The position numbers and the translations under genes were made by a program. A DNA stretch of 64,000 bases from Pseudomonas taiwanensis. Its GTDB lineage: Bacteria > Pseudomonadota > Gammaproteobacteria > Pseudomonadales > Pseudomonadaceae. Location: NCBI RefSeq assembly GCF_013393345.1, contig NZ_QJRF01000040.1:186001-250000 (forward strand), read 5' to 3'. The notes beneath the pieces are model-generated. The model did no database searches. It was not told where the DNA came from and saw nothing but the letters and a program-made list of their open reading frames with translations. Below are positions 31,591 to 47,401 of this stretch, piece after piece (the first letter of the stretch is position 1; each line of letters begins with the position of its first letter).

Positions 31591-31640
31591 TCTCTATTGA
31601 CCATTTATGAACATGCGTGTTCAATTATGTCCAATAGAGA
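31591..31640. promoter_or_regulatory. Nested 50-bp dyad with promoter, upstream of the first TetR operon
   Basis: An inner dyad TGAACA-TGCG-TGTTCA (31608-31623) shares its exact centre with an outer pair of arms TCTCTATTG (31591-31599) and CAATAGAGA (31632-31640). A promoter fits over it: TTGACC (31597-31602), 17 bases, TTCAAT (31620-31625). The operator therefore covers spacer and -10, as expected for repression by the TetR protein encoded 16 bases downstream. The inner motif recurs at 39030, 39210 and 43685. Confidence 0.7.
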
Positions 31641-31655
31641 TCTTGGAGACATCTG

Positions 31656-32270
31656 ATGGAGCCAATGACCACCGCGCAGCGCCGAATTCATCAGACCGCA
31701 CTGCGTCTGTTCGCGGAAAGAGGCGCAACCCAGCTAAGCATCAGGGATCTTGCGAAAGAAGCAGGTGTGGCGCGCGGCACCATCTACCAGTACGTGGATA
31801 CGATGGACCAGCTCTTCGAGCACGTGGCAAGTCAACTGAGTGCGGACATGCATCGACGCATCAGGAAGAACATCAGCCACCTGGAAGACCCCGGACAGCG
31901 CCTGGCGAACGGTATTCGCTTCTTCATCCGGCGCGCCCATGAAGAGCCGCAATGGGGTGCCTTTCTAAGCCGCTTCGCAATGACCACCCCCATGCTCCGC
32001 GAGACGCTCTACAGCCAGGCTACAGCCGACGTGCTCAGTGGCCTTTCCAAAGGGCGCTATCGGTTCCGCCAGGAGCAATTACTCAGCGTCATCTCGATGA
32101 TCGCCAGCAGCGTGTTGGGCGCGATGCTGCTGGTGATGGAAGGTCACAAAACATGGCGCGAGGCCGGTTCGGACACCGCCGAGATGATCTTGCGGACCCT
32201 CGGAATTGCCCCCGATGAAGCCGTGGCCCTGGCCACCGGAGAGCTGCCACCTCTGCCCTGCCCCGATTGA
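31656..32270 (+). CDS. TetR family regulator, paralogue 1 of the catabolic island
   Basis: A 204-aa TetR protein. The HTH is at residues about 10-55 (ALRLFAERGATQLSIRDLAK then GVARGTIYQYVDTMDQL). The ligand domain shares blocks with the second island regulator at 39266: RLANGIRFF, RRAHEEP, EGHKTWREAGSD and LRTLGI. It precedes the dioxygenase, FAH hydrolase and ligase genes on the same strand, probably as the first gene of that operon. The 50-bp dyad directly upstream suggests autorepression. Its inducer is likely a pathway substrate or CoA ester (inference). Confidence 0.88.
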   Translation: MEPMTTAQRRIHQTALRLFAERGATQLSIRDLAKEAGVARGTIYQYVDTMDQLFEHVASQLSADMHRRIRKNISHLEDPGQRLANGIRFFIRRAHEEPQWGAFLSRFAMTTPMLRETLYSQATADVLSGLSKGRYRFRQEQLLSVISMIASSVLGAMLLVMEGHKTWREAGSDTAEMILRTLGIAPDEAVALATGELPPLPCPD

Positions 32271-32358
32271 TTTAGTGCCGAATCGTTAACCGCGCGCTCC
32301 TGGACAACCAAGGAGCGTTGGCATCGTTCGGCCCCAAGAAAGCCGCCGGAGAAGAACA

Positions 32359-33429
32359 ATGTCCAATACTGCTCAACAGCCAGCTCGAAACGCAGCGCCA
32401 ACGGTCAAGGCGACAGGCCTCATCCACCTGATCTTCGAGCGTCCCGACCTGGACCGCGCCGAGCGTTTCCTGACTGATTTCGGTTTGGTCACCAGTCACC
32501 GCCAAGCGGACGTGATTTACCTGCGGGGTACCGCCGAAGCGCCCTACTGCTATCGCATCCACCATGCCGAACGTCCTCGTTTCATTGGCTTCGGCCTGAG
32601 CGTGGCCACCCGTGAGGATCTGGTGCGCCTCAGCCGGCTTCCGGGTGCCACACAGATTGAAAAAGTCGGCGCCCCTGGAGGTGGAGAGCTTGTACGGCTG
32701 ATCGATCCATGCGGATTCCTTGTCGAGGCGATACAGGGTCAGAGGCCCCTCCCGCCCCTGCCGCATCGCCCCCCGCTCCCACTCAATCTGGCCAATGACG
32801 CGCCGCGCATCAACTCCACCCAGCGCCCGCCAATCGCGCCACCGGAGGTCATCCGCCTCGGTCATGTCGTGCTGGAGGTGGCCGACTTTCAGGACACCTG
32901 CGCCTGGTACACGCAGCATTTCGGCTTCATTCCGAGTGACGTCCAGGTGCTGCCGGACGGCTCGCCAGCGGTCGCCTTCATGCGCCTGGACCTGGGAGAC
33001 GCGCCTGCGGACCATCACACCCTGGCTATCGCCCAGGGCTTCATGGCTGCCTACAGCCACAGTGCCTATGAGGTGGTCGATGCCGACGCAGTGGGTATGG
33101 GCCAGCGCGTCCTGCAGGAACGTGGCTGGAAGCATGCCTGGGGTATCGGCAGACACATCCTCGGCAGCCAGATTTTCGACTACTGGCAGGACCCCTGGGG
33201 CGACAAGCATGAGCACTACTGCGATGGCGACCTGTTCACCGCTACGAGGCCCACGGGTTGGCATGAGGTCAGCCCGGATGCAATGGCGCAATGGGGCCAG
33301 CGCATGCCGAGAGACTTCACCCGCCCACGGATGAGCCTGGCCAATTTGCGTGCACTGCTGCGCAACTTGCGGCGCAGTCCAGACCTGACACTGCGCAAGC
33401 TGATCACTTTGGCGCGCATGTTCGGTTAG
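32359..33429 (+). CDS. Extradiol ring-cleavage dioxygenase (type I, VOC fold)
   Basis: A 356-aa protein with two VOC modules. The C-terminal module has the non-haem iron ligands: His in RLGHVVLEV (about residue 173), His in YSHSAYEV (about 233) and Glu in GDKHEHYCDGD (about 290). The catalytic set is therefore complete. It should open a catecholic or hydroxyquinol-like ring next to a hydroxyl group. The next gene is an FAH-family hydrolase, a pairing seen where the ring-opened product is an acylpyruvate-like compound. It differs clearly from the second dioxygenase at 44652 and from MhpB, so the window holds three unrelated or distant extradiol enzymes. Confidence 0.82.
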   Translation: MSNTAQQPARNAAPTVKATGLIHLIFERPDLDRAERFLTDFGLVTSHRQADVIYLRGTAEAPYCYRIHHAERPRFIGFGLSVATREDLVRLSRLPGATQIEKVGAPGGGELVRLIDPCGFLVEAIQGQRPLPPLPHRPPLPLNLANDAPRINSTQRPPIAPPEVIRLGHVVLEVADFQDTCAWYTQHFGFIPSDVQVLPDGSPAVAFMRLDLGDAPADHHTLAIAQGFMAAYSHSAYEVVDADAVGMGQRVLQERGWKHAWGIGRHILGSQIFDYWQDPWGDKHEHYCDGDLFTATRPTGWHEVSPDAMAQWGQRMPRDFTRPRMSLANLRALLRNLRRSPDLTLRKLITLARMFG

Positions 33430-33552
33430 GCCCGGCCACGAAATTCTCCGTGTTGCTGGCCAGCGAAGCGCTGCTGCCAGCCCTGCCCCTACAACAAAGC
33501 TTCGCCAACCGTCGCTAACCAGCGGCCAATCGTTGTACCAGGAGCCAAATCG

Positions 33553-34509
33553 ATGCCCGTCCACCTTGTCCGCTTCGAATACCAGAATGACACGCACTGG
33601 GGTGTAATCCGCCGGGGGCGCATTTCGCGTATCCCTGGCCGCTTCGAGACCACGGGAGACTTGATCCGACAGACACGAGCGGAGGATCTCGCTCAGATGC
33701 AGGACGGCGAGCTCGCACTCGGCGAGGTGCGGTTGCTCTCGCCAGTCACCCGCAATCAGCGCTTCGTCTGCCAGGGCGCCAACTACCGACAGCACATGAT
33801 CGAGTCGGGCATGGACCCGGATGCCAAGCACTTCAACATGATTTTCACCAAGGACAGCAGCTGCATGGTCGCGGCGGACAGCGACCTGATCAAACCACAC
33901 CACGTGCGTTTCCTCGATTACGAGATTGAGCTGGGCCTGGTACTCAAGCGCGAGATCAGCGGCACGGTGAAGGTCACCGACGCCAACCTCCATGAGTTCG
34001 TGGCCGGTGTGGTGATCATTAACGACTATTCCGCCCGGGACATCCAAATTCCGCAGATGCAGTTCTACAAGGGCAAGAGCTTCCGCACCTTCGGCCCGGT
34101 GGGCCCCTTCCTGTGCCTGCTCGACGCCACAGAGATGAGTTACCTGAACAAGCTCCAACTGCGCCTCACGGTGAATGGCCAGGTTCGCCAGAACGACAGT
34201 ACCGCCAACCTGGTATTCGGCCCGGCGGAGACGCTATCGGAACTGTCCGGCGTGCAGGACTTCGCCGCTGGTGACCTGCTCGCCACCGGCACGCCGGCTG
34301 GCTGCGCCCTGTCGATACCATCGCCCGCCAAGCAGCGCATCGCCGCCTTGCTACCTGAGGCGGTCAAATGGAAGGCGTTCATGAAGGCCCAGGAAGCGCG
34401 CAGCGACTATTACCTCAATCGCGGCGACGTCGTCGAGGCGAGCATTCGCAGTGCCGACGGTGTGGTCGATCTGGGCGTGCAACGCAACCTCGTGGTGGAG
34501 CAAGCCTGA
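33553..34509 (+). CDS. Fumarylacetoacetate hydrolase (FAH) family protein
   Basis: A 318-aa FAH-family enzyme. The C-terminal catalytic domain (about residues 75-310) has the metal-binding glutamates in YEIELGLVLKREI and the following YSARDIQ, and the family signatures KSFRTFGPVGPF and GDLLATGTPAG. It should hydrolyse or decarboxylate the product of the upstream dioxygenase, for example an acylpyruvate. AGGAG precedes the start. The stop codon overlaps the ligase start (TGATG). Whether it acts as hydrolase, hydratase or decarboxylase cannot be decided from sequence. Confidence 0.85.
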   Translation: MPVHLVRFEYQNDTHWGVIRRGRISRIPGRFETTGDLIRQTRAEDLAQMQDGELALGEVRLLSPVTRNQRFVCQGANYRQHMIESGMDPDAKHFNMIFTKDSSCMVAADSDLIKPHHVRFLDYEIELGLVLKREISGTVKVTDANLHEFVAGVVIINDYSARDIQIPQMQFYKGKSFRTFGPVGPFLCLLDATEMSYLNKLQLRLTVNGQVRQNDSTANLVFGPAETLSELSGVQDFAAGDLLATGTPAGCALSIPSPAKQRIAALLPEAVKWKAFMKAQEARSDYYLNRGDVVEASIRSADGVVDLGVQRNLVVEQA

Positions 34510-36437
34510 TGGCCGTGAAAGTCCTCGCCGACATCCGGGCCCTGGAAAGCATCCCCCTCGCCCGCCGCGAACTGCCCTCCAATACTTACGCGGCCTTGCA
34601 GCAATGTGCTGCGGAACGTCCCCACGCAACAGCCTTGAGCTTCTTTCTCGACGCCAGAAAGTTCCAGCGTACTCGGGACTGGACGTACGCCAAACTGTTC
34701 GCCGACATCACCCGCGCAGCGAATGCTTTCCACGGTCTGGGGATCGGACCGACGGATGTGGTGGCTTTCCTGCTGCCGAACCTCCCGGAAACCCATTTCA
34801 CTATCTGGGGTGGCGAAGCGGCTGGCATTGTCCTGGCCATCAACCCCTTGCTGGAGGCGAGTCAGATCGCTGATCTGTTGCGCGCCGCCAATGCTCGCGT
34901 GGTGGTAACCCTGGCACCGACGCCGGGGGCGGATCTCTGGCCAAAACTGGCGAGTCAACTCGATCATTTGCCCGGTGTACGCGATGTCATCTGGGTGAGT
35001 ATGGCGGCGTATGTCAGCCCTCTCGCCAAGGTCGCCCTGCGCTGGATGGCGCGGCGCGAGAAAGCACGGCACAAAAATCTTCGTATTCACGATCTACGCG
35101 CGCTCATGCTCCGCCAGCCAAGAAATCGGCTGGTCAGTGGCCGTCAGATTCGATCCGACGAGGCTTCGTCCTACTTCTGTACAGGCGGCACCACTGGCTT
35201 GCCGAAGCTCGCCATCCGAACCCATGGGTCCGAGGTCTTCAATGCCTGGGCGATGGCCGCCAACATGCAGCCGCGCCCACCTGGCCAGGTCATCTTCTGC
35301 GGCCTGCCGCTGTTCCACGTCAATGGCCAACTGGTCACCGGCCTGATGCCCTGGACCCACGGCGACCGCGTGATCATCGGCACGCCACAAGGCTATCGCG
35401 GCCCTGCGGTGATCCAGAATTTCTGGGCGATGGCGGAGCACTTCGGCATCAACTTCTTCTCCGGTGTTCCCACCGTCTATTCCGCTCTGCTCCAGCAGCC
35501 GGTCGGTGACCGTGACCTGTCCAGCCTGCAGTACGCCCTGTGTGGCGCAGCACCCATGCCGGTAGAGCTGTTCCGCGAGTTCGAGCAACGGATTGGCGTG
35601 CGCATCCTCGAGGGATACGGGCTGACCGAAGGCGCCTGCGTGTCCTCGACCAACCCGCCAGAGGGTGAACGGCGGATCGGCTCCATCGGCCTGCGCCTCG
35701 CCTACCAGGAAATGCGCGCGGTGATGCTCAATGATCAGGGCGAGTACCTGCGTGATGCCGAGCCAGACGAGGTTGGCGTAATCGCCATCCATGGCCCCAA
35801 TGTGTTCTGCGGCTATCTCGACCCAAGCCACAATCGGGGCGTATGGATCGAGATTGGGGGCCGTCGCTGGCTGAATACGGGCGACCTTGGTCGCCAAGAC
35901 GCCGAGGGTTACTTCTGGCTCACGGGGCGCAAGAAGGAACTCATCATTCGGGGAGGTCACAACATCGACCCGAAGCAGATCGAGGAGGCACTCCAGGCCC
36001 ATCCCGCGGTGGCGCTGGTGGCGGCCGTTGGCAGCCCTGATGCGCATGCCGGCGAAGTGCCGGTTGCCTACGTGCAGTTGAGCACTGGCCAGCGCACGGA
36101 CAGTACCGAGCTGCTGGCATTCGCCACAGAGAGGATCAGCGAACGCGCAGCCGTTCCCAAACGCATAGAGATTCTCGATGCGCTGCCGGTGACCCCGGTT
36201 GGCAAGATCTTCAAGCCGGCGCTACAGCAGCGGGAGATCGCCCGCGTAATCCGTGAGGAAGCGTCAGCACTTGGCTTTGCAGAGGTCTCTGTGGAGGTTG
36301 TCCAGGATGCCCGGCGCGGGCTGGTCGCTCAGGTTGAAACTGGAGTATGGCGAGAGCCTTTGGCGTGCGCCTTGGGTCGCTACAGCTTCCAGATCGACTG
36401 GCTCACCCCCTCTCCCGCAGTGACCCCGTCAGCGTGA
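34509..36437 (+). CDS. Acyl-CoA synthetase (AMP-forming)
   Basis: A 642-aa member of the ANL superfamily. The AMP-binding P-loop is TGGTTGLPK (about residue 220), then GYGLTEG (A5 motif), NTGDLGRQDAEGYFWLTGR (A7/A8) and the catalytic lysine in PVTPVGKIFKP near residue 575. It activates a carboxylic acid to its CoA thioester. The length resembles a subgroup of about 630 aa whose substrates are aryl- or branched acids, rather than FadD. Translation is coupled to the FAH gene. It may activate the initial substrate or the acid released by ring cleavage. Confidence 0.88.
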   Translation: MAVKVLADIRALESIPLARRELPSNTYAALQQCAAERPHATALSFFLDARKFQRTRDWTYAKLFADITRAANAFHGLGIGPTDVVAFLLPNLPETHFTIWGGEAAGIVLAINPLLEASQIADLLRAANARVVVTLAPTPGADLWPKLASQLDHLPGVRDVIWVSMAAYVSPLAKVALRWMARREKARHKNLRIHDLRALMLRQPRNRLVSGRQIRSDEASSYFCTGGTTGLPKLAIRTHGSEVFNAWAMAANMQPRPPGQVIFCGLPLFHVNGQLVTGLMPWTHGDRVIIGTPQGYRGPAVIQNFWAMAEHFGINFFSGVPTVYSALLQQPVGDRDLSSLQYALCGAAPMPVELFREFEQRIGVRILEGYGLTEGACVSSTNPPEGERRIGSIGLRLAYQEMRAVMLNDQGEYLRDAEPDEVGVIAIHGPNVFCGYLDPSHNRGVWIEIGGRRWLNTGDLGRQDAEGYFWLTGRKKELIIRGGHNIDPKQIEEALQAHPAVALVAAVGSPDAHAGEVPVAYVQLSTGQRTDSTELLAFATERISERAAVPKRIEILDALPVTPVGKIFKPALQQREIARVIREEASALGFAEVSVEVVQDARRGLVAQVETGVWREPLACALGRYSFQIDWLTPSPAVTPSA

Positions 36438-36471
36438 CACGCGCACCAGGTGACCCGCACACAGTAACGAC

Positions 36472-36506
36472 AAGGGGCAGTGGATGAGATGCATCCCCTG
36501 CCCCTT
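36472..36506. terminator. Bidirectional terminator hairpin between convergent genes
   Basis: A 15-bp stem with one mismatch (arms starting AAGGGGCAG and ending CTGCCCCTT) and a 5-base loop separates the ligase gene from the convergent amidohydrolase gene. A and T bases at the stem foot suit termination in both directions. Confidence 0.6.
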
Positions 36507-36529
36507 CGATGACATGACTTGCTGCAGCC

Positions 36530-37732
36530 TTACTTCCGCATATTCTGCGCCAGTGAACGAAGCGGTTGGAGCATCTGGCGCTTCATCTGTCCCGACCAGG
36601 GTTCATGGTCATACAGCGGCGCTGCAGCAACCACTTCACCCTCCAGCCTGAACCGTGGGAAGAGGCTCAATGCATGCTCACGCTCGACACCGCCGACCAT
36701 TTGCGCTGACCAGAATCCGTCTTTCCCAAGCGCAGTGATCTGGGCGAGTGTCTGGCCTTCCGTTTCGTAGGGCGCATCGCTGCCGAACAGAATGCGGGAT
36801 GGCTCCACCAGCTCACGTAGTGTGGCCATGGAGTAGCGCGATGCCGACGAGGCTGTGTCGAAATAGAAGCGCCGCAGGTAGTTGAGGACTCCCAATGCCG
36901 CCTTGTCGCTAAATTCCGGCATTGCGTTGGCGAGGGACACGCGCCAGGCCACGTACGGCAGAAAACCGCCTGCATGGGCCAATATCCAGCGAATATGTGG
37001 GTAGCGCTCCATGGTGCCGGAGAGAATCAGGTTCAATCCGGCCCTGGTCAGGTCACAGGAAAACTCCAGCAAGCCCGGCGGCATATCCAGGCCTAACTCG
37101 ACCGTGGACGGGTGCAGATTGGGGTGGACGAACACGGTGGCCTGACGCCGATCCAGCTCGCCCATCAACTCATCGAAGGACTCATCCCCTAGGAATTTCT
37201 CGCCATTGCTTGCCAACAGCACCACGCCGTCGGCATTCAGCGTGTCCAACGCATGAATTGCTTCCGCACAGGCGTTATCGGTGAAAGGCAGTGGCACATG
37301 GGCAAAGAAACCAAAACGTCCTGGATATCGGCGCACCAGATCGGCGGAGTACTCATTACTGCTGCGGGATACATGGACGAGCTCGCTCTTTTCCAGGCTG
37401 AGCCCTGGCATCACGACTGAGGTGATTGCAGTTCGCACTCCGCTCCGCTCCATTGCCCCCAGCGATGATTCCGGAGTCCAGTCGGGGATGGCGTTACCTG
37501 CGAGCTGGTGGACGTGATGACGCTGCAAGCATTCGCGCAGCGCGGGACTGAATATGTGGTGGTGGACATCGATTCGGCCTGCCGAGATGTTTTCCGTTAC
37601 TCGGCTCGATTCCGCCTCGACAGCTGGTATCGCTACGCCGGCGCTTCCCGACGAGGCACCACTTGCACTGCCCGCAAGCAGGCCTGCTCCCACAAGAGCA
37701 CTCGCACCGGCAACGAATTCACGACGTTTCAT
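36530..37732 (-). CDS. Tat-exported amidohydrolase (ACMSD-like)
   Basis: A 400-aa amidohydrolase-2 family protein. The N-terminus MKRREFVAGASALVGAGLLA is a twin-arginine signal (RREF followed by a hydrophobic stretch). Mature-region metal ligands are His-x-His in RIDVHHHIFSP, a His in FVHPNLH, a His in ILAHAGGFLPY and an Asp in FGSDAPYE. The family includes aminocarboxymuconate-semialdehyde and hydroxybenzoate decarboxylases and lactone hydrolases, mostly cytoplasmic. Export before or after folding with its metal would place this reaction in the periplasm. It follows the cytosolic paralogue at 37798 with a 65-bp gap, probably in one operon. Confidence 0.82.
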   Translation of the reverse strand: MKRREFVAGASALVGAGLLAGSASGASSGSAGVAIPAVEAESSRVTENISAGRIDVHHHIFSPALRECLQRHHVHQLAGNAIPDWTPESSLGAMERSGVRTAITSVVMPGLSLEKSELVHVSRSSNEYSADLVRRYPGRFGFFAHVPLPFTDNACAEAIHALDTLNADGVVLLASNGEKFLGDESFDELMGELDRRQATVFVHPNLHPSTVELGLDMPPGLLEFSCDLTRAGLNLILSGTMERYPHIRWILAHAGGFLPYVAWRVSLANAMPEFSDKAALGVLNYLRRFYFDTASSASRYSMATLRELVEPSRILFGSDAPYETEGQTLAQITALGKDGFWSAQMVGGVEREHALSLFPRFRLEGEVVAAAPLYDHEPWSGQMKRQMLQPLRSLAQNMRK

Positions 37733-37797
37733 AACAACCTCTTGTTCTTGGAATTATTTCCGAGGGCATTGGCAGCCCTGGCACGCGCAAAGGGCAA

Positions 37798-38871
37798 TCA
37801 GCGGTCACGCATACTTTCAGTCAGGCTCCCCATGGGACCCGTCATGGCGCGCTTGAAGCGGCTGGAGAGGGATTCGTCTTCAAATACTGGCGCCGCCACG
37901 ATCGCTTCCGACGCAAGTCGATACTTGGGGAACAACTGCAAGGCGTGACCACGGTTGATTCCGTACTGTCCAGTTGATGACCACAAGTCAGAAGCGTCCA
38001 ACGTCTGGCACTGCAAGGCGGTTACCGGCGCGGGAGCGAACGGAAAATCACTGCCGAACAGGAGATGTGACGGATCGATCAGCTCCTTGAGCGCCGCCAT
38101 GGAATAGCGCGAGGGCGACAACGCCGTGTCGTAGTAGAAGCGCCGAATGTAGCCAAGCATTTCCTGAGGCGTTTTTTCCCCCAGCACGGGTACTGCACCT
38201 GAATCCGCCACCCGCCCCGCCACGAACGGCAGGAAGCCCCCGGAGTGGGCAAGGATCCAGCGAACATTCGGGTACTTGTCCAGCGTGCCGGTGCGGATCA
38301 GGTTCACCGCAGCACGTGTGGTATCGCAGAGGAATTCGATCAGGAATCCGGGCATCGGCAAGCCAATGTTCACACTGGTGGCATGCAGGTTGGGATGCAC
38401 GAAGACCGTGGCATCACGACGGTTCAATTCGGCCATCAACTCATCGAATCGGGCGTCGCCGAGAAACACCCCATCGGTGCTCCCCAAGAGCACAACTCCG
38501 TCGGCGTGCAAGGTTTCCAGCGCATGAATGGCTTCTGCACAAGCCTCTGCGATGAAGGGCGTAGGCAGAACGGCGAACGAGCCGAAGCGCCCGGGATAGC
38601 GCGCACTCATCTCGGCAGAAAATTCGTTGCAGCGACGTGCCAGATCACTGGCTTGCCGAGGGCCATCACCAAAATGTACGCCAGGAGCGGAAAGCGAGGT
38701 GATGGCGGTCTGGATCCCGTTGGCGTCCATCACATCGATGGATTTCGCCGCATCCCAACTTGGCAACGGTGCACCCGCCACCTTGGTAATACCCTTGGCC
38801 TGCATCACCTCCACGAAAGCAGGCGGGATGACGTGATGGTGAACATCTATGCGACCTTGTTTTACTGGCAT
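37798..38871 (-). CDS. Amidohydrolase family protein (ACMSD-like), cytosolic
   Basis: A 357-aa paralogue of the neighbouring exported protein but without a signal: it starts MPVKQGRIDVHHHVIPPAF. Metal ligands are the His-x-His at about residues 10-12, FVHPNLH, ILAHSGGFLPF and FGSDFPFA. It likely decarboxylates or hydrolyses an aromatic or ring-opened acid. GAGG lies 5-6 bases before the start. A copy of the island operator (39030-39045) lies about 160 bp upstream in the correct orientation for a promoter with TTGACA, so it is probably co-regulated with the TetR1 and meta-cleavage operons. Confidence 0.82.
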   Translation of the reverse strand: MPVKQGRIDVHHHVIPPAFVEVMQAKGITKVAGAPLPSWDAAKSIDVMDANGIQTAITSLSAPGVHFGDGPRQASDLARRCNEFSAEMSARYPGRFGSFAVLPTPFIAEACAEAIHALETLHADGVVLLGSTDGVFLGDARFDELMAELNRRDATVFVHPNLHATSVNIGLPMPGFLIEFLCDTTRAAVNLIRTGTLDKYPNVRWILAHSGGFLPFVAGRVADSGAVPVLGEKTPQEMLGYIRRFYYDTALSPSRYSMAALKELIDPSHLLFGSDFPFAPAPVTALQCQTLDASDLWSSTGQYGINRGHALQLFPKYRLASEAIVAAPVFEDESLSSRFKRAMTGPMGSLTESMRDR

Positions 38872-39029
38872 GGAAACCTCTGGTCAGTGCGGGGAATCAG
38901 CGCCGTTGTAGCTCCGTGAGAGCTCTAGGCGCAGACGACTTCGACTTCAGTCGTCGTGCTGCAAGGCTGCGATCCGACACAGACTGAAGCGGGATAGGAG
39001 CCAGAAGCAACAACACGACAGAGCAATGG

Positions 39030-39045
39030 TGAACATTAGCGTTCA
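39030..39045 (-). promoter_or_regulatory. Island operator copy upstream of the amidohydrolase operon
   Basis: TGAACA-TTAG-CGTTCA matches the island dyad TGAACA-N4-TGTTCA with one mismatch. On the minus strand TTGACA lies just upstream and TTCACC 16 bases after it, the same promoter-operator geometry as at 31591. It is the likely control site for the two amidohydrolase genes. Confidence 0.6.
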
Positions 39046-39198
39046 ATTCTGTCAATCAGAGCAACGCTCTCCCGCCAACCGGACGACTGGCGGAAACCGA
39101 GCTTCTGGAAGCGACTCTTGGCTTCCGCAGGCTGCGTCACACGGGTGTTACATACGCAGCAGGCATTGTCAGATGATGCGACGCGCAAAAAAACGCTA

Positions 39199-39227
39199 TT
39201 GACTCGACTTAAACACAAGTGTTCAAT
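39199..39227 (+). promoter_or_regulatory. Promoter with island operator upstream of the second TetR gene
   Basis: TTGACT (39199-39204), 17 bases, TTCAAT (39222-39227), with the dyad TAAACA-CAAG-TGTTCA (39210-39225) over the spacer and -10. The arrangement is the same as in front of the first TetR gene. It starts 39 bases from the TetR2 start codon. Confidence 0.6.
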
Positions 39228-39265
39228 GCAGCCATTGCATCTTGATGAGAGGCTGTGCCTGATCC

Positions 39266-39871
39266 ATGAGCCCGGTTCAGAAACGTATCCATGACGCGGC
39301 ACTGCGTCTGTTCGCCGAGAAGAGCATTGGCGAGGTGAATGTCAGCGAGCTGGCGCAGGTCGCCGGGGTCGCCCGCGGCACCATCTACAACAACCTCAGC
39401 TCGGTTGAATCACTGTTCGAGGATGTTGCGTCGCAATTGAGCGGCGAGATGAACCTTCGGGTCGCCAGGAGCGCGCATCCAGACATGGATCCCGCCCAGC
39501 GTCTGGCAAACGGGATTCGCTTTTACATGCGTCGCGCTCACGAAGAGCCCTATTGGGGCCGATTCATCGTGCGTTACGCCGCAACCAGCGCCACATTGCG
39601 CGAGCTCTGGAGTGGCCCACCCGTGCAGGACATCCTCAGTGGTCTGGCCCTGCATCGCTACGATTTCCGCCAGGAGCAACTGACGTCAGTGGTCGCCATG
39701 ATGGGCGGCGTAGTACTGACCGGGATGCTTCTTGTGCTGGAGGGGCACAAGACCTGGAGGGATGCCGGTTCGGATGCCGCCGAACTGGTACTGAGGGCCC
39801 TGGGCATCGGTATCAAGGAAGCCCAGGCACTTGCCGCGAAAGAGCTTCCGGCACTGCCCCCACCCGAGTAA
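39266..39871 (+). CDS. TetR family regulator, paralogue 2 of the catabolic island
   Basis: A 201-aa TetR protein with HTH at about residues 8-50 (ALRLFAEKSIGEVNVSELAQ then GVARGTIYNNLSSVESL). The ligand domain shares RLANGIRFYMRRAHEEPYWG and EGHKTWRDAGSD with the paralogue at 31656, and the recognition helices are similar, so both may read the same dyad. It is divergent from the amidohydrolases and upstream of DUF1302/DUF1329. A short GC hairpin (39900-39914) follows the gene. Confidence 0.88.
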   Translation: MSPVQKRIHDAALRLFAEKSIGEVNVSELAQVAGVARGTIYNNLSSVESLFEDVASQLSGEMNLRVARSAHPDMDPAQRLANGIRFYMRRAHEEPYWGRFIVRYAATSATLRELWSGPPVQDILSGLALHRYDFRQEQLTSVVAMMGGVVLTGMLLVLEGHKTWRDAGSDAAELVLRALGIGIKEAQALAAKELPALPPPE

Positions 39872-40161
39872 CCCCATCGGATAACCCGCACTTCAATCAC
39901 CCCTCTCAGAGGGGCCGGGTTCCCTTTGCCTGTAGAAAGTCGGAGACAACAACAATGAAAGCGACGACGCGCCTCCCCTACCCCCTCGTCCAAGCGTCCC
40001 TGCTCCAAGGTATGACCGCTTACTTCAGCCCGCTCCGACGCGCCCTATCGAGCTGAACACCCCGGCGCACCGTCAGGCACCGAGGCCTGGAGCTCATGGC
40101 ATGACGTTACGACCCTAGCTTTCTCGCCAACGCCCAATTTCCCGCGAATCAAGAGTACGGA

Positions 40162-40181
40162 TTCATCGATTGCTCGATGAA
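40162..40181 (+). promoter_or_regulatory. Perfect 8+4+8 inverted repeat upstream of the second DUF1302 gene
   Basis: TTCATCGA and TCGATGAA flank TTGC, 68 bases before the DUF1302 start. The 377-bp gap 39872-40248 has no supported gene; a 33-codon frame at 39955-40056 is too weak to call. The repeat could be an operator distinct from the island dyad or a leader hairpin. Confidence 0.4.
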
Positions 40182-40248
40182 CTGGACGGCTTCTCACGTC
40201 CCGAAAAAAGCAAGCGCACTTAATACAAAAACAAGAGGTAGCGAAGGC

Positions 40249-42165
40249 ATGACAACGAAACGACCCCCGTGGCAACCCGCCCGCCTTGCATGTGCAGTTA
40301 GCCTGGCGACTTGCATCTGCGCCCCGGCTCAGGCTGTCAGCTTCAAGATCGGTGAGATCGAAGGACAGTTCGATTCCAACCTGTCGGTCGGTGCCAGCTG
40401 GTCGACGCAGAGTCCAGACCCGGATCTGATTGGCGCAAACAACGGTGGAGACGGTCTGTCACAGGCGGGTGATGACGGTCGCCTGAACTTCAAGAAGGGC
40501 GAGACCTTCTCGAAGATCTTCAAGGGCATCCATGACCTCGAACTGAAGTACCGCGATACCGGTGTCTTCCTCCGTGGCAAGTACTGGTACGACTTCGAGC
40601 TGAAGGACGAGAGCCGTCCGTTCAAGGACATCGACGACAGCGGCCGCAAGGAAGGCGCCAAGTCCTCCGGCGCGCAATTGCTCGACGCCTTCGTCTACCA
40701 CAACTATCAACTAGCCGACCTGCCGGGCAGCGTGCGTCTGGGCAAGCAGGTGGTGAGCTGGGGTGAGAGCACCTTCATCGGCAACAGCATCAACTCCATC
40801 AACCCGATCGACGTCTCTGCGTTTCGTCGCCCCGGTTCCGAGATCAAGGAAGGCTTGATCCCGGTGAACATGTTCTACGTGTCCCAGAGCCTCACCGACA
40901 ATCTCTCGGCCGAAGTCTTCTATCAGCTGGAATGGGACCAGACCGTCATCGACAACTGCGGCACCTTCTTCTCCTCCACCGATGTGGTAGCCGATGGCTG
41001 CGACCAGAATCTCGCTGTGTTGCGTACCGAACAGCAGGTGCGTAATGCACTGCCGGCGCCTTTCCGCAATGCAGCGATGAATGTCCTGAATGCTCGAGGC
41101 GTGACCTGGGGAAATCCGGACGAAGGTGTCATCGTCCCGCGTGGCGGGGATGTGGACGCTCGTGACAGTGGCCAGTGGGGCACTGCACTGCGTTACTTCT
41201 CCGAGACGCTGGACACCGAGTTCGGCGCCTACTTCATGAACTACCACAGCCGGACCCCGGTATTCAGTGCATCTGCCGCTCCGGCCAGTGCATATAGTGG
41301 TGCGGGTCTCGTCGGATCGTTGGCGGGTGCGGGCATTCCTGTACCAGCTGCCGCGCTACTGGCCCAGAGTCTGCTACCCCTGGCCGTGATCGGCAGTAGC
41401 CAGTACTTCATGGAGTACCCCGAAGACATTCGTCTCTATGGCCTGAGCTTCTCGACCACACTCCCTACCGGTACCGCCTGGAGCGGGGAATTCAGCTACC
41501 GACCAAACGCCCCCGTTCAGCTTAACGTCACTGATGTCCTGCTATCCGGTCTGAGTCCACTGGCACCAAACGCCTCGCTGCTCACGGCTACCCCTGGCGC
41601 CACCCAGCACGGCTACCGGCGCAAGGAAATCAGCCAGTTCCAGACCACTTTCACCCACTTCTTTGACCAGGTCATGGGTGCTGATCGCCTGACCCTAGTA
41701 GGTGAGCTTGGCATCACCCATGTCGGTGGTCTGGAAAGCTCCAGCAAGGTTCGCTACGGGCGCGACCCCATCTTCGGTCCCGGCCCGCTGCCAGGCGGAG
41801 GCTGCCAGGCCTTCAACGCCCAGACCCTGGGTAGCGCGACCGCGGAGAACGTCAGCAAGTACTGCGAGGACGATGGCTTCGTCACCAGCACGTCCTGGGG
41901 TTATCGCGCTCGCGCCATCTGGGAATACAACAACGTGATCCCGGGCATCGAGTTGAAACCCAGCATCGCCTGGTCCCACGACGTTGATGGCTACGGTCCC
42001 AACGGGCTGTTCAACGAAGGCGCTAAAGCCATCAGCCTCGGCTTGGATGCCAGCTACCTAAGCACCTATTCCGCCGGCCTTTCCTACACCAACTTCTTCG
42101 GCGGTGATTACAACTCGAGCATCGATCGCGACTTCGTTGCCCTGAGTTTTGGCGTGTCGTTCTAA
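40249..42165 (+). CDS. DUF1302 family outer membrane beta-barrel protein, second copy
   Basis: A 638-aa protein with a signal peptide ending near APAQAVS, followed by the DUF1302 opening FKIGEIEGQFDSNLSVGASW. The body is rich in aromatic-ended beta strands and ends in LSFGVSF, a C-terminal Phe typical of outer membrane barrels. It is about 80 residues longer than the first copy at 13433. The start at 40249 gives a normal signal peptide; an upstream in-frame ATG at 40177 would put 24 polar residues in front of it. It pairs with DUF1329, 15 bases downstream, but here no RND or YCF48 gene follows. Confidence 0.87.
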   Translation: MTTKRPPWQPARLACAVSLATCICAPAQAVSFKIGEIEGQFDSNLSVGASWSTQSPDPDLIGANNGGDGLSQAGDDGRLNFKKGETFSKIFKGIHDLELKYRDTGVFLRGKYWYDFELKDESRPFKDIDDSGRKEGAKSSGAQLLDAFVYHNYQLADLPGSVRLGKQVVSWGESTFIGNSINSINPIDVSAFRRPGSEIKEGLIPVNMFYVSQSLTDNLSAEVFYQLEWDQTVIDNCGTFFSSTDVVADGCDQNLAVLRTEQQVRNALPAPFRNAAMNVLNARGVTWGNPDEGVIVPRGGDVDARDSGQWGTALRYFSETLDTEFGAYFMNYHSRTPVFSASAAPASAYSGAGLVGSLAGAGIPVPAAALLAQSLLPLAVIGSSQYFMEYPEDIRLYGLSFSTTLPTGTAWSGEFSYRPNAPVQLNVTDVLLSGLSPLAPNASLLTATPGATQHGYRRKEISQFQTTFTHFFDQVMGADRLTLVGELGITHVGGLESSSKVRYGRDPIFGPGPLPGGGCQAFNAQTLGSATAENVSKYCEDDGFVTSTSWGYRARAIWEYNNVIPGIELKPSIAWSHDVDGYGPNGLFNEGAKAISLGLDASYLSTYSAGLSYTNFFGGDYNSSIDRDFVALSFGVSF

Positions 42166-42180
42166 GCGGAGATCATAAGC

Positions 42181-43548
42181 ATGAATAAGACGATCATCCT
42201 GGCGCACTCGCTTGCGCTGAGCCTGAGCCTTACCTGCCAATCCACCCAAGCTGCCGTCAGTGCGGAACAGGCTGGGCAGTTGGGTACCTCTCTCACCCCG
42301 CTGGGAGCGGAAATGGCCGGCAATGCCGCCGGCACCATTCCGGCCTGGAGCGGCGGATTGCCCAAGGACTCCGGCAATCGGGATGCAGCCGGCTTCCTCA
42401 GTGATCCTTTCGTATCTGAGAAGCCGCTGTTCACCATCAGCGCCCAGAACATGGCGCAGTACCAGGACCAACTGACGCCTGGCCAAGTCGCGATGCTCAA
42501 GCGCTATCCGGACACCTACCATCTGCCCGTCTACCCCAGCCACCGCACCGCGAACGCTCCGGACTTCGTCTACAAGGCCGCAAAGGAAAACGCGACCAAA
42601 ACCACCATGGTGGATGGCGGCAATGGGCTGGAGAACTTCTCCACCGCCGTGCCCTTCCCTATCCCCCAGAACGGCCTGGAAGTGGTGTGGAACCATATCA
42701 CCCGCTATCGCGGCGGCAGCGCCAAGCGGGTCCACGTACAAGCGACGCCATTGGCCAATGGCACCTTCGTGCCGGTGTACTTCAAGCAGGAACTCACCTT
42801 CCGTGATCGCGTCGCCGACTTCGACCCGGCCAACCCGGGCAACGTGCTCTTTTACTACAAGCAGTTGGTCACAGCGCCTGCGCGTCTGGCGGGAGACGTC
42901 GTGCTGGTACACGAAACACTGAACCAGGTGAAAGAACCGCGCATGGCGTGGATCTATAACGCCGGTCAGCGCCGTGTGCGACGTGCACCGCAGATTTCCT
43001 ACGACGGCCCCTACCCTGCCTCCGAAGGCCAGCGTGTCGCCGATAACCTGGACATGTACAACGGAGCGCCGGACCGCTACGACTGGAAGTTGGTGGGAAA
43101 GCGCGAGGTCTACATCCCCTACAACAGCTTCAAGCTCGACGCGGCGAACCTCAAGTACACGGATATCGTCAAACCCGGCCACATCAACTCCGACCTGACC
43201 CGTTATGAGCTTCACCGTGTCTGGCAGGTCGAGGCAACGCTCAAGCCGGGCGAGCGCCACGTCTATGCCAAGCGCGTCTTCTACATCGATGAAGACACCT
43301 GGCAAATCGCCCTGGCGGATCACTACGACTCCCGCGGCACCCTGTGGCGCACTGCCGAAGGTCACATGGAGCCGATGTATGACCTGCAGATCGCCTGGCT
43401 GGGTACCGAAGCGCTGTATGACCTGATCAACGGCCGCTACATCGTTTCCGGGATGCGCAACGAGGAGAAGCAGCCGATCGAGTTCGGTCTGAACGCCAGT
43501 TCCGCCGAGTACACCGCAGCGGCATTGCGCAGTGCGGGAGTCCGCTGA
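42181..43548 (+). CDS. DUF1329 family periplasmic protein, second copy
   Basis: A 455-aa exported protein with signal MNKTIILAHSLALSLSLTC and the family opening LGTSLTPLGAEMAGNAAGTI. Matching blocks with the copy at 15130 include YDWKLVGKREVYIPYNSF and VFYIDEDTWQ. It should shuttle or sense a hydrophobic ligand in the periplasm in partnership with the DUF1302 barrel. A clear terminator follows, so the pair forms its own transcription unit ahead of the meta-cleavage operon. Confidence 0.87.
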   Translation: MNKTIILAHSLALSLSLTCQSTQAAVSAEQAGQLGTSLTPLGAEMAGNAAGTIPAWSGGLPKDSGNRDAAGFLSDPFVSEKPLFTISAQNMAQYQDQLTPGQVAMLKRYPDTYHLPVYPSHRTANAPDFVYKAAKENATKTTMVDGGNGLENFSTAVPFPIPQNGLEVVWNHITRYRGGSAKRVHVQATPLANGTFVPVYFKQELTFRDRVADFDPANPGNVLFYYKQLVTAPARLAGDVVLVHETLNQVKEPRMAWIYNAGQRRVRRAPQISYDGPYPASEGQRVADNLDMYNGAPDRYDWKLVGKREVYIPYNSFKLDAANLKYTDIVKPGHINSDLTRYELHRVWQVEATLKPGERHVYAKRVFYIDEDTWQIALADHYDSRGTLWRTAEGHMEPMYDLQIAWLGTEALYDLINGRYIVSGMRNEEKQPIEFGLNASSAEYTAAALRSAGVR

Positions 43549-43584
43549 CGACTACTCCGTCGAAGGCCAAAAGCCCAAGACCTT

Positions 43585-43608
43585 GCCGCCCTTCGGGGCG
43601 GCCTTTTC
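43585..43608 (+). terminator. Rho-independent terminator after DUF1329
   Basis: GCCGCCC pairs with GGGCGGC around a TTCG tetraloop, followed by CTTTTCT. It separates the DUF1302/DUF1329 unit from the meta-cleavage operon. Confidence 0.85.
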
Positions 43609-43684
43609 TACCAGGCCCGACACCACCTAGGGATGACGGGCTCCAAACAGGAGCTCTGTGTGTGGGCAAGCTTTATCCACCAAA

Positions 43685-43700
43685 TGAACAGTTGTGTTCA
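43685..43700 (+). promoter_or_regulatory. Island operator copy upstream of the meta-cleavage operon
   Basis: TGAACA-GTTG-TGTTCA is a perfect copy of the island dyad, 62 bases before the hydrolase start. It overlaps TTCAAA; no strong -35 is visible at 17 bases, and TATAGA at 43704 is an alternative -10. Confidence 0.65.
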
Positions 43701-43762: not shown

Positions 43763-44632
43763 ATGAGCAGCAACGAAGCCATTCCCAAGATCACCTCCCG
43801 CTGTGTGACCGTCGGCAAACGCCAGATCTTCATCAACGAACTGGGACAGGGTTATCCGCTGCTCATGCTTCACGGCGGCGGTGCCGGCGCGTCTGGTCTG
43901 TCCAACTATTCGAAAAATATCGAAGCCCTTGCCAAGCACTTTCGCGTGTTGGTCGCGGACATGCCGGGTTACGGCAAGTCCACCAAGGGGGTGAATCGCG
44001 ACGACCCCTTCGGCGACCTGGCCAGCGCGATGCTCGGACTGCTCGACGCGCTGGAAATTAAGCGTGCCCACGTGGTCGGCAACTCCCTGGGCGGAGCCTG
44101 TGCGCTTCGCATGGCACTAGACGCCCCCAAACGTGTTTCCGCCCTCGTGCTGATGGGCCCCGGCGGTATCAACACCACTCGCAGCCTTCCCACTCCGGGT
44201 CTCAACCAGTTGCTGAACTATTACAGCGGCGAAGGCCCCACGCTGGAAAAGATCACCCGCTTCATCCGCGAGTACCTGGTGTACGACGGCAGCCAGGTGT
44301 CAGACGCGATGATTGAAGAACGCTTCCGCTCCAGCATTGACCCGGAAGTTGTCGCCGCCCCACCACTGCGCCGCCCCAAGGGTCTGAAAGCAGCACTGCG
44401 CATGGATTTCACCCGTGATGCCCGACTGGCGCAGTGCCAGGTCCCCACGTTGGTGCTCTGGGGCACCGCTGACAAGGTGAACCGTCCGAGCGGCGGCGAA
44501 ACGCTGCAAAAACGCATGCCGAACTGCGACCTCTACCTGTTCAACAAAACCGGGCACTGGGTGCAGTGGGAGCGTGCGGAAGAGTTCAACGCGGTTACCA
44601 CCGGGTTCCTGATGAACCGGGTTCCGGCCTGA
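43763..44632 (+). CDS. Meta-cleavage product hydrolase (alpha/beta hydrolase)
   Basis: A 289-aa alpha/beta hydrolase of the MhpC/BphD/TesD type. The oxyanion region is HGGGAGASG, the nucleophile Ser is in VGNSLGG (about residue 110), the acid Asp in LWGTADKVN and the His in NKTGHWVQWE. It cleaves the C-C bond of the ring-opened product, releasing 2-hydroxypenta-2,4-dienoate and a carboxylic acid whose identity depends on the ring substituent. First gene of an operon that continues with dioxygenase and monooxygenase genes. It differs in sequence from MhpC at 57732, so the substituent is probably different. Confidence 0.88.
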   Translation: MSSNEAIPKITSRCVTVGKRQIFINELGQGYPLLMLHGGGAGASGLSNYSKNIEALAKHFRVLVADMPGYGKSTKGVNRDDPFGDLASAMLGLLDALEIKRAHVVGNSLGGACALRMALDAPKRVSALVLMGPGGINTTRSLPTPGLNQLLNYYSGEGPTLEKITRFIREYLVYDGSQVSDAMIEERFRSSIDPEVVAAPPLRRPKGLKAALRMDFTRDARLAQCQVPTLVLWGTADKVNRPSGGETLQKRMPNCDLYLFNKTGHWVQWERAEEFNAVTTGFLMNRVPA

Positions 44633-44651
44633 TCCCCGAGGAGTCGTGCAG

Positions 44652-45653
44652 ATGAATCAGGATATTTTCGGCGCCAGCAGCATGGGCTATGCGCTGATCG
44701 AGTCGAATCGGATCGACCATTGGAAGACCTTCCTCAAGGATGGCATCGGGCTCCATCTGCAGCATGCGGACCGGGACTCCCTGGCCTTCCGCATGGACGC
44801 GCATCAACGCCGGGTCATCATCCAGCGCGGGCCGGCAGAAGACTTTGTCGCCGTGGGTTGGCAACTGCGCGACCAGGCGACGCTCGACATTGTGCTGCAG
44901 CGCCTGAAGGCACGCGGAATCGCGGTCCAGGCCAGCTCTGTGCGAGAAGCAGCGGTACGGGGCGTGGCGCATTTCTGGCGGATTATCGGCCCCAAGCGTT
45001 TGGCCATCGAACTGTTCATTGAGCCGCTGACCACCGACGAGCCACTCGACATGCTCTGCGCCGGTTTCATTACCGGCGAGGCTGGCATGGGCCACCTGGC
45101 GATCACCAGTCGCCGGGGCAAGGCCATGCGTCGTTTCTGGCAGGAAATTTTCGATGCACGCCAGAGCGACAGCATTGTCGAGCAACTGGCGGGCGTCACC
45201 GTGGACATCGACTTCTTCCGGGTCAATCCACGCCACCACTCCATCGCGATCGCCCAGGTCCGTGGTCTGCCAATGGACCCGATCCGCACCAAGGCGCAGC
45301 ACATGAATCTGCTGACGACCTCGGTAAGCGAACTCACCGATGCCTTCCTGCGCTGCCGCGCCTTGGGCTTCGAGATGGCCCATGAAATCGGCGAGCACCC
45401 GAACGATCGCGAACAGTCCTTCTATGTCCTCTGCCCTTCCGGCTTCGAAATCGAGCTTGGCTGGAACGCACTGGAAGTGGATGAGCGCTCCTGGCAGCCC
45501 ACCACACACCAGGGCATCAGCCTGTGGGGACATCGCCCCGAGAAGACGGGGACCTGGAACAAGCTTTCCACCAATCTGGGCAATTTCGGGCGCGGCCTGC
45601 GCTCGCTGCTCTCCCCTGAGTACTCCCCGCTGCAGGAGTCGCATTCGAAATGA
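44652..45653 (+). CDS. Extradiol dioxygenase (type I, BphC-like)
   Basis: A 333-aa two-module VOC protein. Iron ligands are His in GMGHLAIT (about residue 148), His in AQHMNLLT (about 218) and Glu in CPSGFEIELGW (about 270), as in 2,3-dihydroxybiphenyl dioxygenases. It cleaves the catechol made by the following monooxygenase. The ATG at 44652 has GAGGAG 10 bases upstream; a GTG two codons earlier is also possible. Its stop codon overlaps the start of the next gene (ATGA). This type I enzyme contrasts with the type III MhpB of the neighbouring mhp operon. Confidence 0.88.
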   Translation: MNQDIFGASSMGYALIESNRIDHWKTFLKDGIGLHLQHADRDSLAFRMDAHQRRVIIQRGPAEDFVAVGWQLRDQATLDIVLQRLKARGIAVQASSVREAAVRGVAHFWRIIGPKRLAIELFIEPLTTDEPLDMLCAGFITGEAGMGHLAITSRRGKAMRRFWQEIFDARQSDSIVEQLAGVTVDIDFFRVNPRHHSIAIAQVRGLPMDPIRTKAQHMNLLTTSVSELTDAFLRCRALGFEMAHEIGEHPNDREQSFYVLCPSGFEIELGWNALEVDERSWQPTTHQGISLWGHRPEKTGTWNKLSTNLGNFGRGLRSLLSPEYSPLQESHSK

Positions 45654-47401
45654 ACAGCTACAACAACGACAACAAGCTCATAGACGTGGTCATTGCCGGT
45701 CTCGGCCCGACGGGCGCCACCCTCGCGCACCTGCTGGGCAAACGCGGCCTTTCCGTACTGGTACTTGAGCGTGAACCGGCCTTCTACGGCAATGCACGGG
45801 CTGTCTACACCGACGACGAGTGCATGCGGGTGATGCAGTCGGCGGGGGTGGCCAACGAGCTCGCCCAGGATATGCAGGTGGATACTCCCGCCCAGTGGAC
45901 CCATGCCGACGGCCGCGTGATCGGACGCTACTGGCAACTCAAGCGTCCGTTCGGCTGGCCCGTGATCAATTTCCTTTACCAGCCCTGGATGGAGACCAAG
46001 CTCAGCGAACTGCTTTCGCGCTATCCGCAGGTGCAGGTGCTGCGTGGCCGGGAACTGGTGGACTTTCAGCAGGAAGGTGAGTTCGTCACCCTCACCCACC
46101 AGGCCACCCGTAGCTACCGCTTCTCGGACGGTAGCGATGCGCGTGTTGAAGCCGACAGCGATCCCGCGCCTGTCACCCTGAAGGCACGCTACCTGGTCGG
46201 TGCCGACGGCGGCCGCAGCACCGTGCGGGAAAAGCTCGGTATTGGCATGGATGGCAAGAACTTCCCTGAGCCCTGGTTGGTGGTCGACCTGGAAATGAAG
46301 CAAGGCGAAGACGCCTTGCGCCACATCCCTTACTTCAACTTCGTCTGCGATCCGCAAGGTCCCGTAGTCAGTTGCCCGCAGCCTGGCCGGTTCCACCGTT
46401 TCGAATTCATGCTGATGCCCGGTCAGACCAAGGAACACATGGAGGACCCGGCGACCGTACGGGCGCTGATCAGCCGCTTCGTCGACCCCGACAAGTTCGA
46501 GGTCAAACGCCGCCTGGTCTACACCTTCAATGCGCTGGTAGCCCGCGAGTGGCGCAAGGGTCGCGTGTTCCTGGCCGGCGATGCCGCCCACATGACGCCC
46601 CAGTTCATGGGCCAGGGAATGAGCTCGGGTGTACGCGACGCCTACAACCTGGCGTGGAAGCTGGATGCGGTACTGCGGGGCCAGGCTACCGACAAACTGC
46701 TCGACACCTACGGTAGCGAGCGATATCACCATGCCAAGTCGATGATCGACATCTCGGTGCTGATGAAAGATTTCGTCTCCATGTCCAACCCGGTGGCGAG
46801 CACGCTTCGCAACCTGGCGGTCAAGGTGCTCGAGGCCACCCCAATCGCCGGTCAATGGCTGCGCGAAGGCGGTTTCAAACCTACCCCAACCTACAAGCCT
46901 GGCACCTATCTCGGCCTCCGCCGCAAGGGACGCAAGGGTGTCGAGGGCACGCCGATTCCGCAGCCTCAGGTACGCACATTCAAAGGCAAGCGAGTCCTGC
47001 TCGATGAAATCCTGGGTGAGGGCTACGCCTTGATCGGATTGGAAAACAATCCGCTGGACGCCCTCTCGCCTGACTCTCGGAAGATGCTTGAAGCGCTGGA
47101 TACCCGCTTCGTGACGCTCTATCCCTTCGGCGGCCGCCCCCAGGGCCTGCATGAGAATCGCCGGACGCCTGATGGGTTGGTGGAAGTCGAAGAGCCCGAC
47201 GGCGACCTGGCCAAGTGGTTCCGCCGCAATGGCCGCAAACACCAACCGGTCGCCATCATCCGTCCGGACAAGTTCGTCTTCGGACTGGTTGAAGCCGAAG
47301 ACCTCGATGCAGCCCTTTCCGAGTTGAGGGACCAACTGGGCTGGCGGCCGGACCTGGCAACCCGTGACAGCGGCTTCGCATCCCTGAGGAAAAGCGCATG
47401 A
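45650..47401 (+). CDS. FAD-dependent aromatic hydroxylase (MhpA-like)
   Basis: A 583-aa flavoprotein monooxygenase. The FAD motifs are VVIAGLGPTGATLAHLLG (residues about 13-30), the GADGGRSTVR motif (about 183) and the second FAD motif RVFLAGDAAHMTPQFMGQGM (about 305). It uses NAD(P)H and O2 to place a hydroxyl ortho to a phenolic group. It resembles MhpA in layout but is far less similar to E. coli MhpA than the copy at 59562, so it probably hydroxylates a different phenol. It overlaps both flanking genes by ATGA, which indicates tight coupling in the operon. Confidence 0.87.
   Translation: MNSYNNDNKLIDVVIAGLGPTGATLAHLLGKRGLSVLVLEREPAFYGNARAVYTDDECMRVMQSAGVANELAQDMQVDTPAQWTHADGRVIGRYWQLKRPFGWPVINFLYQPWMETKLSELLSRYPQVQVLRGRELVDFQQEGEFVTLTHQATRSYRFSDGSDARVEADSDPAPVTLKARYLVGADGGRSTVREKLGIGMDGKNFPEPWLVVDLEMKQGEDALRHIPYFNFVCDPQGPVVSCPQPGRFHRFEFMLMPGQTKEHMEDPATVRALISRFVDPDKFEVKRRLVYTFNALVAREWRKGRVFLAGDAAHMTPQFMGQGMSSGVRDAYNLAWKLDAVLRGQATDKLLDTYGSERYHHAKSMIDISVLMKDFVSMSNPVASTLRNLAVKVLEATPIAGQWLREGGFKPTPTYKPGTYLGLRRKGRKGVEGTPIPQPQVRTFKGKRVLLDEILGEGYALIGLENNPLDALSPDSRKMLEALDTRFVTLYPFGGRPQGLHENRRTPDGLVEVEEPDGDLAKWFRRNGRKHQPVAIIRPDKFVFGLVEAEDLDAALSELRDQLGWRPDLATRDSGFASLRKSA

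Follow-up and report, generated by a model that had tools for sequence, protein, structure and literature searches.

Introduction

The systems closest to the locus considered here are RolR of Corynebacterium glutamicum, a TetR-type protein that represses resorcinol catabolism (PDB 3aqs/3aqt), EdcR of Caenibius tardaugens, a TetR repressor of oestrogen catabolism (PMC8700777), and the mhp operon with its IclR-family regulator MhpR. Our subject is a 64-kb stretch of the Pseudomonas taiwanensis genome (the window, part of the 370-kb contig C33), in which the dyad TGAACA-N4-TGTTCA stands in front of four transcription units: (i) tetR1 with the genes for EDO1 (extradiol-dioxygenase-like), FAH1 (of the fumarylacetoacetate-hydrolase family) and an acyl-coenzyme A (CoA) synthetase (ACS); (ii) two amidohydrolase genes, amH2 and amH1; (iii) tetR2 with the genes for DUF1302 and DUF1329 proteins; and (iv) a meta-cleavage operon headed by a hydrolase gene, mhpC. 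Judging from comparative sequence data, the dyad is very probably the switch of the two related repressors, TetR1 and TetR2.

TetR1 and TetR2 resemble RolR in being TetR-type (predicted) repressors in an aromatic catabolic setting and in having an equivalent of its Asp149. Unlike RolR, to which they are 24-26% identical in fold alignments, they have a different recognition helix and lack Asp94, Arg145 and Arg148, and the cluster departs from the RolR system in its meta-cleavage genes and, in dual genomes, its two paralogues. This comparison concerns protein sequence, fold and pocket residues, not the operator. EdcR, in the accessible text of PMC8700777, is likewise a TetR repressor that acts on several aromatic promoters and has a putative palindrome overlapping the -10, but it belongs to TetR_C_11 rather than TetR_C_40 and its operator is given there as TnnCnnTACnAnTnGTAnnGnnA. 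The meta-cleavage operon shares with mhp a hydroxylase, dioxygenase, hydrolase, hydratase, aldolase and dehydrogenase. It differs in that the hydroxylase at 45.6 kb falls below the MhpA equivalog cut-offs while passing one subfamily model, EDO2 matches BphC and HsaC models but not those of 3-carboxyethylcatechol dioxygenase, and a TetR dyad lies upstream. The hcdABC genes of Pseudomonas mandelii 7HK4, compared only by their description in the accessible text of PMC6222606, involve related chemistry but have hydroxylase, dioxygenase and hydrolase in a row, and were set aside. We found neither the operator nor the regulon described in the open PMC literature, exact operator strings included, a body of text that leaves subscription papers mostly outside. 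We regard the regulon as a well-supported addition to known TetR catabolic repression, and the operator that the two paralogues appear to share as the part deserving work.

The dyad in the window and in related genomes

Two perfect copies of the dyad and two with a single arm mismatch lie where the initial annotation had placed them, and the promoters of tetR1 and tetR2 read as it had stated (Table 1). It had also found no dyad before the mhp genes, the porin or the third amidohydrolase, and this holds: the best matches before OprD, the third amidohydrolase, MhpT and MhpA/MhpR differ at 4 or 5 of the 12 arm positions. When a single mismatch is allowed, the window contains exactly 4 copies, compared with a mean of 0.05 and a maximum of 1 in dinucleotide shuffles, 0/100 of which reached 4. 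With up to three mismatches there are 19 matches against a shuffle mean of 16.0 and, because this count does not exceed chance, the signal is restricted to near-perfect copies. The consensus for most copies is better given as TGAACAY-N2-RTGTTCA.

Both perfect copies in the whole 6.69-Mb genome are inside the cluster (2/2). Of the 9 copies with one mismatch or none, 4 lie in this 12-kb stretch, where the density elsewhere in the genome would predict 0.009 per 12.1 kb. The resulting P(>=4) of 2.8e-10 is post hoc, since the motif was derived from the same sites, and own-genome enrichment alone is therefore no independent test. Three of the five copies outside the cluster are within mechanically called open reading frames (ORFs; L003, L004 and L008), one (L007) is about 290 bp upstream of an ORF and one (L009) has no ORF of 100 amino acids within 1 kb on the downstream side of the fetched stretch. 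None of the five adjoins a relative of a cluster gene at E 1e-15, so that no wider regulon was found among these sites.

Stronger evidence comes from other genomes. Querying with both TetRs retrieved 50 loci (0.99 Mb), all of them Pseudomonas records, in which we counted dyads, up to one mismatch being allowed, in the 350 bp upstream of homologues of at least 45% identity. The dyad is present at 40/40 tetR1, 12/13 tetR2, 10/15 amH2 and 9/10 mhpC junctions, compared with 0/197 junctions of eleven other genes, which is a soft control as many of those windows are coding. Altogether 109 of the 113 dyads in these loci lie within 350 bp upstream of one of the four genes, a count that does not assign each dyad to tetR1 because the tetR1 interval in most tetR1 loci includes a second dyad facing a divergent gene (38 such sites). 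The four units named in the initial annotation are thus the ones that the dyad precedes in other species, and it is this conservation that supports its reading as a catabolic regulon.

The remaining sites are informative as to membership. The five amH2 misses (L028, L038, L047, L051 and L053) arise because amH2 there sits behind two flavin-hydroxylase-like genes, the first of which (34-35% identity) faces the dyad. In L026 and L040 the gene facing the second dyad encodes an old-yellow-enzyme protein; the homologue of this gene in our genome (61%; C33:292793) has no dyad within two mismatches in the 4.2 kb inspected. Four dyads lie outside the counted intervals: that of L061 precedes a FadL-type porin gene leading the EDO1 unit, one in L040 (L040:14923) is about 450-510 bp upstream of DUF1302, and those of L050 and L052 are far from any of these genes.

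On the scale of whole genomes, 85 of the 96 perfect dyads in 48 further, TetR-bearing genomes are inside the fetched loci (a reversed-pattern control gave 7 in all), which together with the own-genome count shows that the motif is not equally frequent elsewhere. Nine of the 11 outside copies were inspected. One (L114, genome G044) actually precedes mhpC, in a TetR2 cluster right outside the locus, four (L105, L106, L108 and L113) are within ORFs, one (L111, strain HK44) overlaps the start of an ORF next to mhp-like genes, one (L107) is about 90 bp ahead of an ORF and two (L109 and L112) are between ORFs. A further copy from the genus search (L110) is within an ORF, and no recurring extra member of the regulon emerged from these ten. 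Within the genus, a perfect dyad occurs in 4/6 TetR-bearing and 0/12 TetR-less genomes. In a sample of 398 Pseudomonadaceae genomes, scored in a first look for at most seven candidates each, TetR was found in 43, and a perfect dyad anywhere in the genome accompanied it in 40/43 cases compared with 106/355 genomes where TetR was not found (Fisher p 3e-16, by a test that ignores shared ancestry). Among 369 genomes of the class, only our own and the gammaproteobacterial G294 (L117) have a TetR1/2 relative at E <= 1e-25; the latter protein is 40-42% identical to TetR1/2, and no dyad within three mismatches was found in the 3.6 kb inspected around it.

Promoter geometry

Counting from the start of a TTGACA-like box (at least 5/6 matches) to the dyad, we found the -35 box exactly 11 bases before the dyad in 41/41 tetR1 promoters, that of the window included. 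The dyad thereby occupies the -35/-10 spacer and overlaps the -10. Because the right arm followed by AT forms the -10 itself (TTCAAT), part of the conservation of the tetR1 dyad is the promoter's own. The arms nevertheless hold 1.4-1.9 bits per base compared with 0.5-1.1 for the N4 and 0.1-0.7 for the downstream flank, and at the mhpC sites, where no -35 is seen, the values are 1.78 and 1.59 bits for the two arms, 0.69 for the N4 and 0.16-0.70 for the flanks. The nearest dyad is 31-36 bp from the tetR1 start in 40/40 cases, a spacing that fits the prediction of autoregulation. Other promoters are arranged somewhat differently: the box starts 10 bases before the dyad at 6 of the 10 amH2 sites (11 bases at 3) and at 23/38 divergent sites. 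The amidohydrolase site of the window has a minus-strand TTGACA, also 10 bases before the dyad.

Relationship of TetR1 and TetR2 to RolR

Both proteins match TetR_N (PF00440) above its cut-off and TetR_C_40 (PF21306) with 57.4 and 53.7 bits against a cut-off of 27. They share the helix residues A39-R40-G41-T42-Y44, which are invariant or at least 90% conserved in 31 sequences, whereas a neighbouring TetR paralogue of about 30% identity has S-N-G-T in 4/6 cases and A-S-G-T and S-T-G-T in the others; no leftover dyad was found before the operon of that paralogue in the 50 loci. RolR is the best solved full-length match by sequence (E 8e-20) and also the best match to the predicted fold (Foldseek E 2.5e-9, TM 0.80, for a query model with a pLDDT of 84.6). 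According to the accessible text of PMC3086911, RolR is a repressor whose Asp149 sets inducer specificity, with Asp94, Arg145 and Arg148 contributing affinity. With chain and native numbering offset by 16, as inferred from the fit to the residues named in that text, Asp149 aligns with D125, which is invariant in 31/31 sequences. Only this residue of the four-residue resorcinol motif (Asp94-Arg145-Arg148-Asp149) is retained, which makes TetR1 and TetR2 relatives of RolR rather than established resorcinol regulators. As the other three are replaced, the inducer may differ from that of RolR, and it is likely a phenolic compound of different shape.

The nearest relatives in a named strain are those of Pseudomonas sp. 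ZH-FAD (87% for TetR1 and 96% for TetR2). This strain is described as a bisphenol F degrader in the accessible text of PMC10573430 and PMC12507022, where no link to the cluster is shown.

A working model

We favor a model, to which we give a probability of about 0.8, in which both RolR-like TetRs use the dyad as operator in an autoregulated repression that is released by a phenolic ligand, the four units being induced together. A dimer of TetR1 or TetR2 would occupy the dyad and, because the dyad fills the -35/-10 gap and overlaps the -10, should block RNA polymerase at the tetR1 and tetR2 promoters, so that each repressor would limit its own gene. Entry of a phenolic or resorcinol-like compound into the pocket would release the repressor and turn on the dioxygenase, FAH and CoA ligase genes, the two amidohydrolases, tetR2 with DUF1302/DUF1329, and the hydroxylase/meta-cleavage operon. 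The cluster looks built for the degradation of phenol-like compounds. By analogy with established pathways of this kind, the meta-cleavage operon would break a 3-substituted phenol down to a carboxylic acid, pyruvate and acetyl-CoA, and the ligase of the first unit could activate the resulting acid.

Several of our observations weigh against this model. The ambiguity in assigning dyads to tetR1 and the absence of the three RolR residues, both described above, are among them, as is the neglect of shared ancestry in the 398-genome comparison. At tetR2 only 6/13 promoters pass the cut-off used for the -35 box, and at mhpC a TTGACA-like box is 11 bases from the dyad in only 1/10. G536 is TetR-bearing, with its perfect dyad not at the TetR gene, and 3 of the 43 TetR-bearing family genomes (G001, G010 and G700) have no perfect dyad, although one- or two-mismatch copies are present there at the usual place.

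If the model holds, it yields a candidate operator and the proteins likely to bind it, and tells which genes belong to the catabolic regulon. The operator would also be a handle, in the form of a reporter or biosensor, toward finding the substrate.

One repressor or two

The support for placing all four units in a single regulon controlled by both TetRs is indirect only. An alternative is that there are two circuits, with TetR1 acting on its own unit only and TetR2 on the remaining three. The arms common to all sites would then be leftovers of duplication, and the middle bases or the flanks would provide discrimination. We consider this unlikely, though well worth keeping in mind. Positions 7 and 10 of the dyad are C/G in 36/41 tetR1 sites compared with T/A or C/A in 6/10 amH2 sites, and the 10-base offset at 6/10 amH2 sites, in place of 11, could be read in the same way. 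However, C/G is also found in 4/10 mhpC and 4/13 tetR2 sites, so that the classes overlap.

The 48 genomes, sorted by hand, provide a further view of this question, with 33 having just one TetR, located in the tetR1 place, 6 having TetR2 only and 9 having two or more. Both kinds of single-repressor genome keep the same dyad arms: of 66 sites in the tetR1-place-only genomes 60 are perfect, and of 17 in the TetR2-only genomes 11 are, the remaining 6 in each case having one mismatch. In two TetR2-only loci the dyad stands at the EDO1 unit. In L150 it has EDO1 on one side and a divergent flavin hydroxylase gene on the other, and in L061 it precedes the FadL-EDO1 unit, so that TetR2 seems able to take over this unit, contrary to what two separate circuits would require. 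Moreover, in a tree of the proteins the EDO1-adjacent TetR of L028, L038, L047, L051 and L053, five of the 33 tetR1-place-only cases, branches on the TetR2 side (99/98, with the bootstrap not fully settled), as does that of L115 (G017), which suggests that the type of repressor guarding each unit changed over time while the operator remained constant. Given the single-TetR genomes, the tree and the L150 and L061 dyads, we favor a shared operator. This natural split into tetR1-place-only, TetR2-only and dual genomes would lend itself directly to studying how two paralogous repressors can use a single site.

A shared operator also allows a more speculative idea, about which we are rather doubtful: two repressors with different pockets on one operator might both have to be released for full induction, giving an AND of two aromatic signals. 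In that event the inputs could be, for example, a ring-cleavage intermediate together with the parent compound, and single-repressor genomes would be the one-signal version.

Activation or a different regulator as possible readings

It is also conceivable, but improbable, that the TetRs act as activators and not as repressors, at the meta-cleavage promoter if nowhere else. In the window (43685-43760), as in most relatives, this promoter has kept the dyad and has no recognisable -35 box, and because 9/10 mhpC promoters are without a TTGACA-like box at the offset typical of tetR1, they may need an activator or have another start. At tetR1, however, the dyad is between the -35 and the -10 in 41/41 promoters, where a bound dimer should block polymerase, and the relative RolR is termed a repressor in the accessible text of PMC3086911.

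Another regulator could in principle bind the dyad, the TetR genes being merely members of its regulon, which we think very improbable. The 106/355 family genomes with a perfect dyad where TetR was not found could be taken in its favor; against this, none of the 12 TetR-less genomes of the genus has a perfect copy, and the dyad-tetR1 spacing of 31-36 bp (40/40) is that predicted by autoregulation. Moreover, among the copies listed for the TetR-negative Pseudomonadaceae genomes a single 16-mer, TGAACACSSGTGTTCA, with the middle CCCG/CGGG, often recurs. Its sole inspected copy (L106) is within an ORF, near a gene which we take, from the start of its sequence, to be AroQ-like.

Finally, chance palindromes overlapping -10 boxes were rejected as the origin of the sites, for while there is no excess at up to three mismatches (19 vs 16.0), the 4 near-perfect copies compare with 0.05 expected in shuffles and the dyad is conserved in other genomes, across the 50 loci.

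Gene content of the cluster

The features of the cluster are collected in Table 1. The start of the ACS gene is probably near 34500, as its longest ORF overlaps FAH1, and that of the MhpF-like gene is later than 48033, as the domain match begins at residue 65 of the ORF. The DUF1302 gene has no dyad of its own, the best match having 3 mismatches.

Table 1. Features of the dyad-bearing cluster, in window coordinates
Feature	Position	Strand	Remark
Dyad 1 (perfect), putative operator of the TetR1-EDO1-FAH1-ACS unit	31608..31623	.	Conserved before tetR1, 40/40 junctions
tetR1 promoter, TTGACC-17-TTCAAT, dyad covers spacer and -10	31597..31625	+	-35 offset identical in 41/41
TetR1, RolR-like predicted repressor, TetR_N and TetR_C_40	31656..32270	+	
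EDO1, extradiol-dioxygenase-like, Pfam Glyoxalase domain	32359..33429	+	
FAH1, fumarylacetoacetate-hydrolase family	33553..34509	+	
ACS, acyl-CoA synthetase, PRK07529 type	34368..36437	+	
AmH1, Amidohydro_2 protein, second gene of minus-strand unit	36530..37732	-	
AmH2, Amidohydro_2 protein	37798..38871	-	Matches solved ACMSD and solved gamma-resorcylate decarboxylase in sequence
Dyad 2 (one mismatch), putative operator of the AmH2-AmH1 unit	39030..39045	.	
Dyad 3 (one mismatch), putative operator of tetR2	39210..39225	.	12/13 junctions
tetR2 promoter, TTGACT-17-TTCAAT	39199..39227	+	
TetR2, 56% identical to TetR1	39266..39871	+	
DUF1302 protein, downstream of tetR2	40177..42165	+	
DUF1329 protein	42181..43548	+	
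Dyad 4 (perfect), putative operator of the meta-cleavage operon	43685..43700	.	9/10 junctions
MhpC/HsaD-like alpha/beta hydrolase	43763..44632	+	
EDO2, BphC-like extradiol dioxygenase	44646..45653	+	
Flavin hydroxylase, MhpA kind	45650..47401	+	
MhpD-like 2-keto-4-pentenoate hydratase	47398..48195	+	
MhpF-like acetaldehyde dehydrogenase, longest ORF	48033..49166	+	
MhpE-like 4-hydroxy-2-oxovalerate aldolase	49163..50191	+	
Short-chain dehydrogenase, final operon gene	50206..51054	+	

The N-terminus of AmH1, MKRREFVAGASALVGAG, resembles a twin-arginine export signal, while none is visible by eye in AmH2. Upstream of tetR1, TniA/TniB/TniQ-like transposition genes (27131-30883) occupy the position where L026 and L040 have the divergent old-yellow-enzyme gene and the second dyad; no convincing terminal repeats of this element were found (best 18/25), and a KfrA_N plasmid-type gene is at 25600. 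On the other side, directly adjoining the dyad regulon, is an mhp operon (53572-62491) with genes for MhpT, MhpE, MhpF, MhpD, a BphD/MhpC-like hydrolase, MhpB and MhpA, together with an IclR-type MhpR-like regulator, which places two meta-cleavage pathways side by side.

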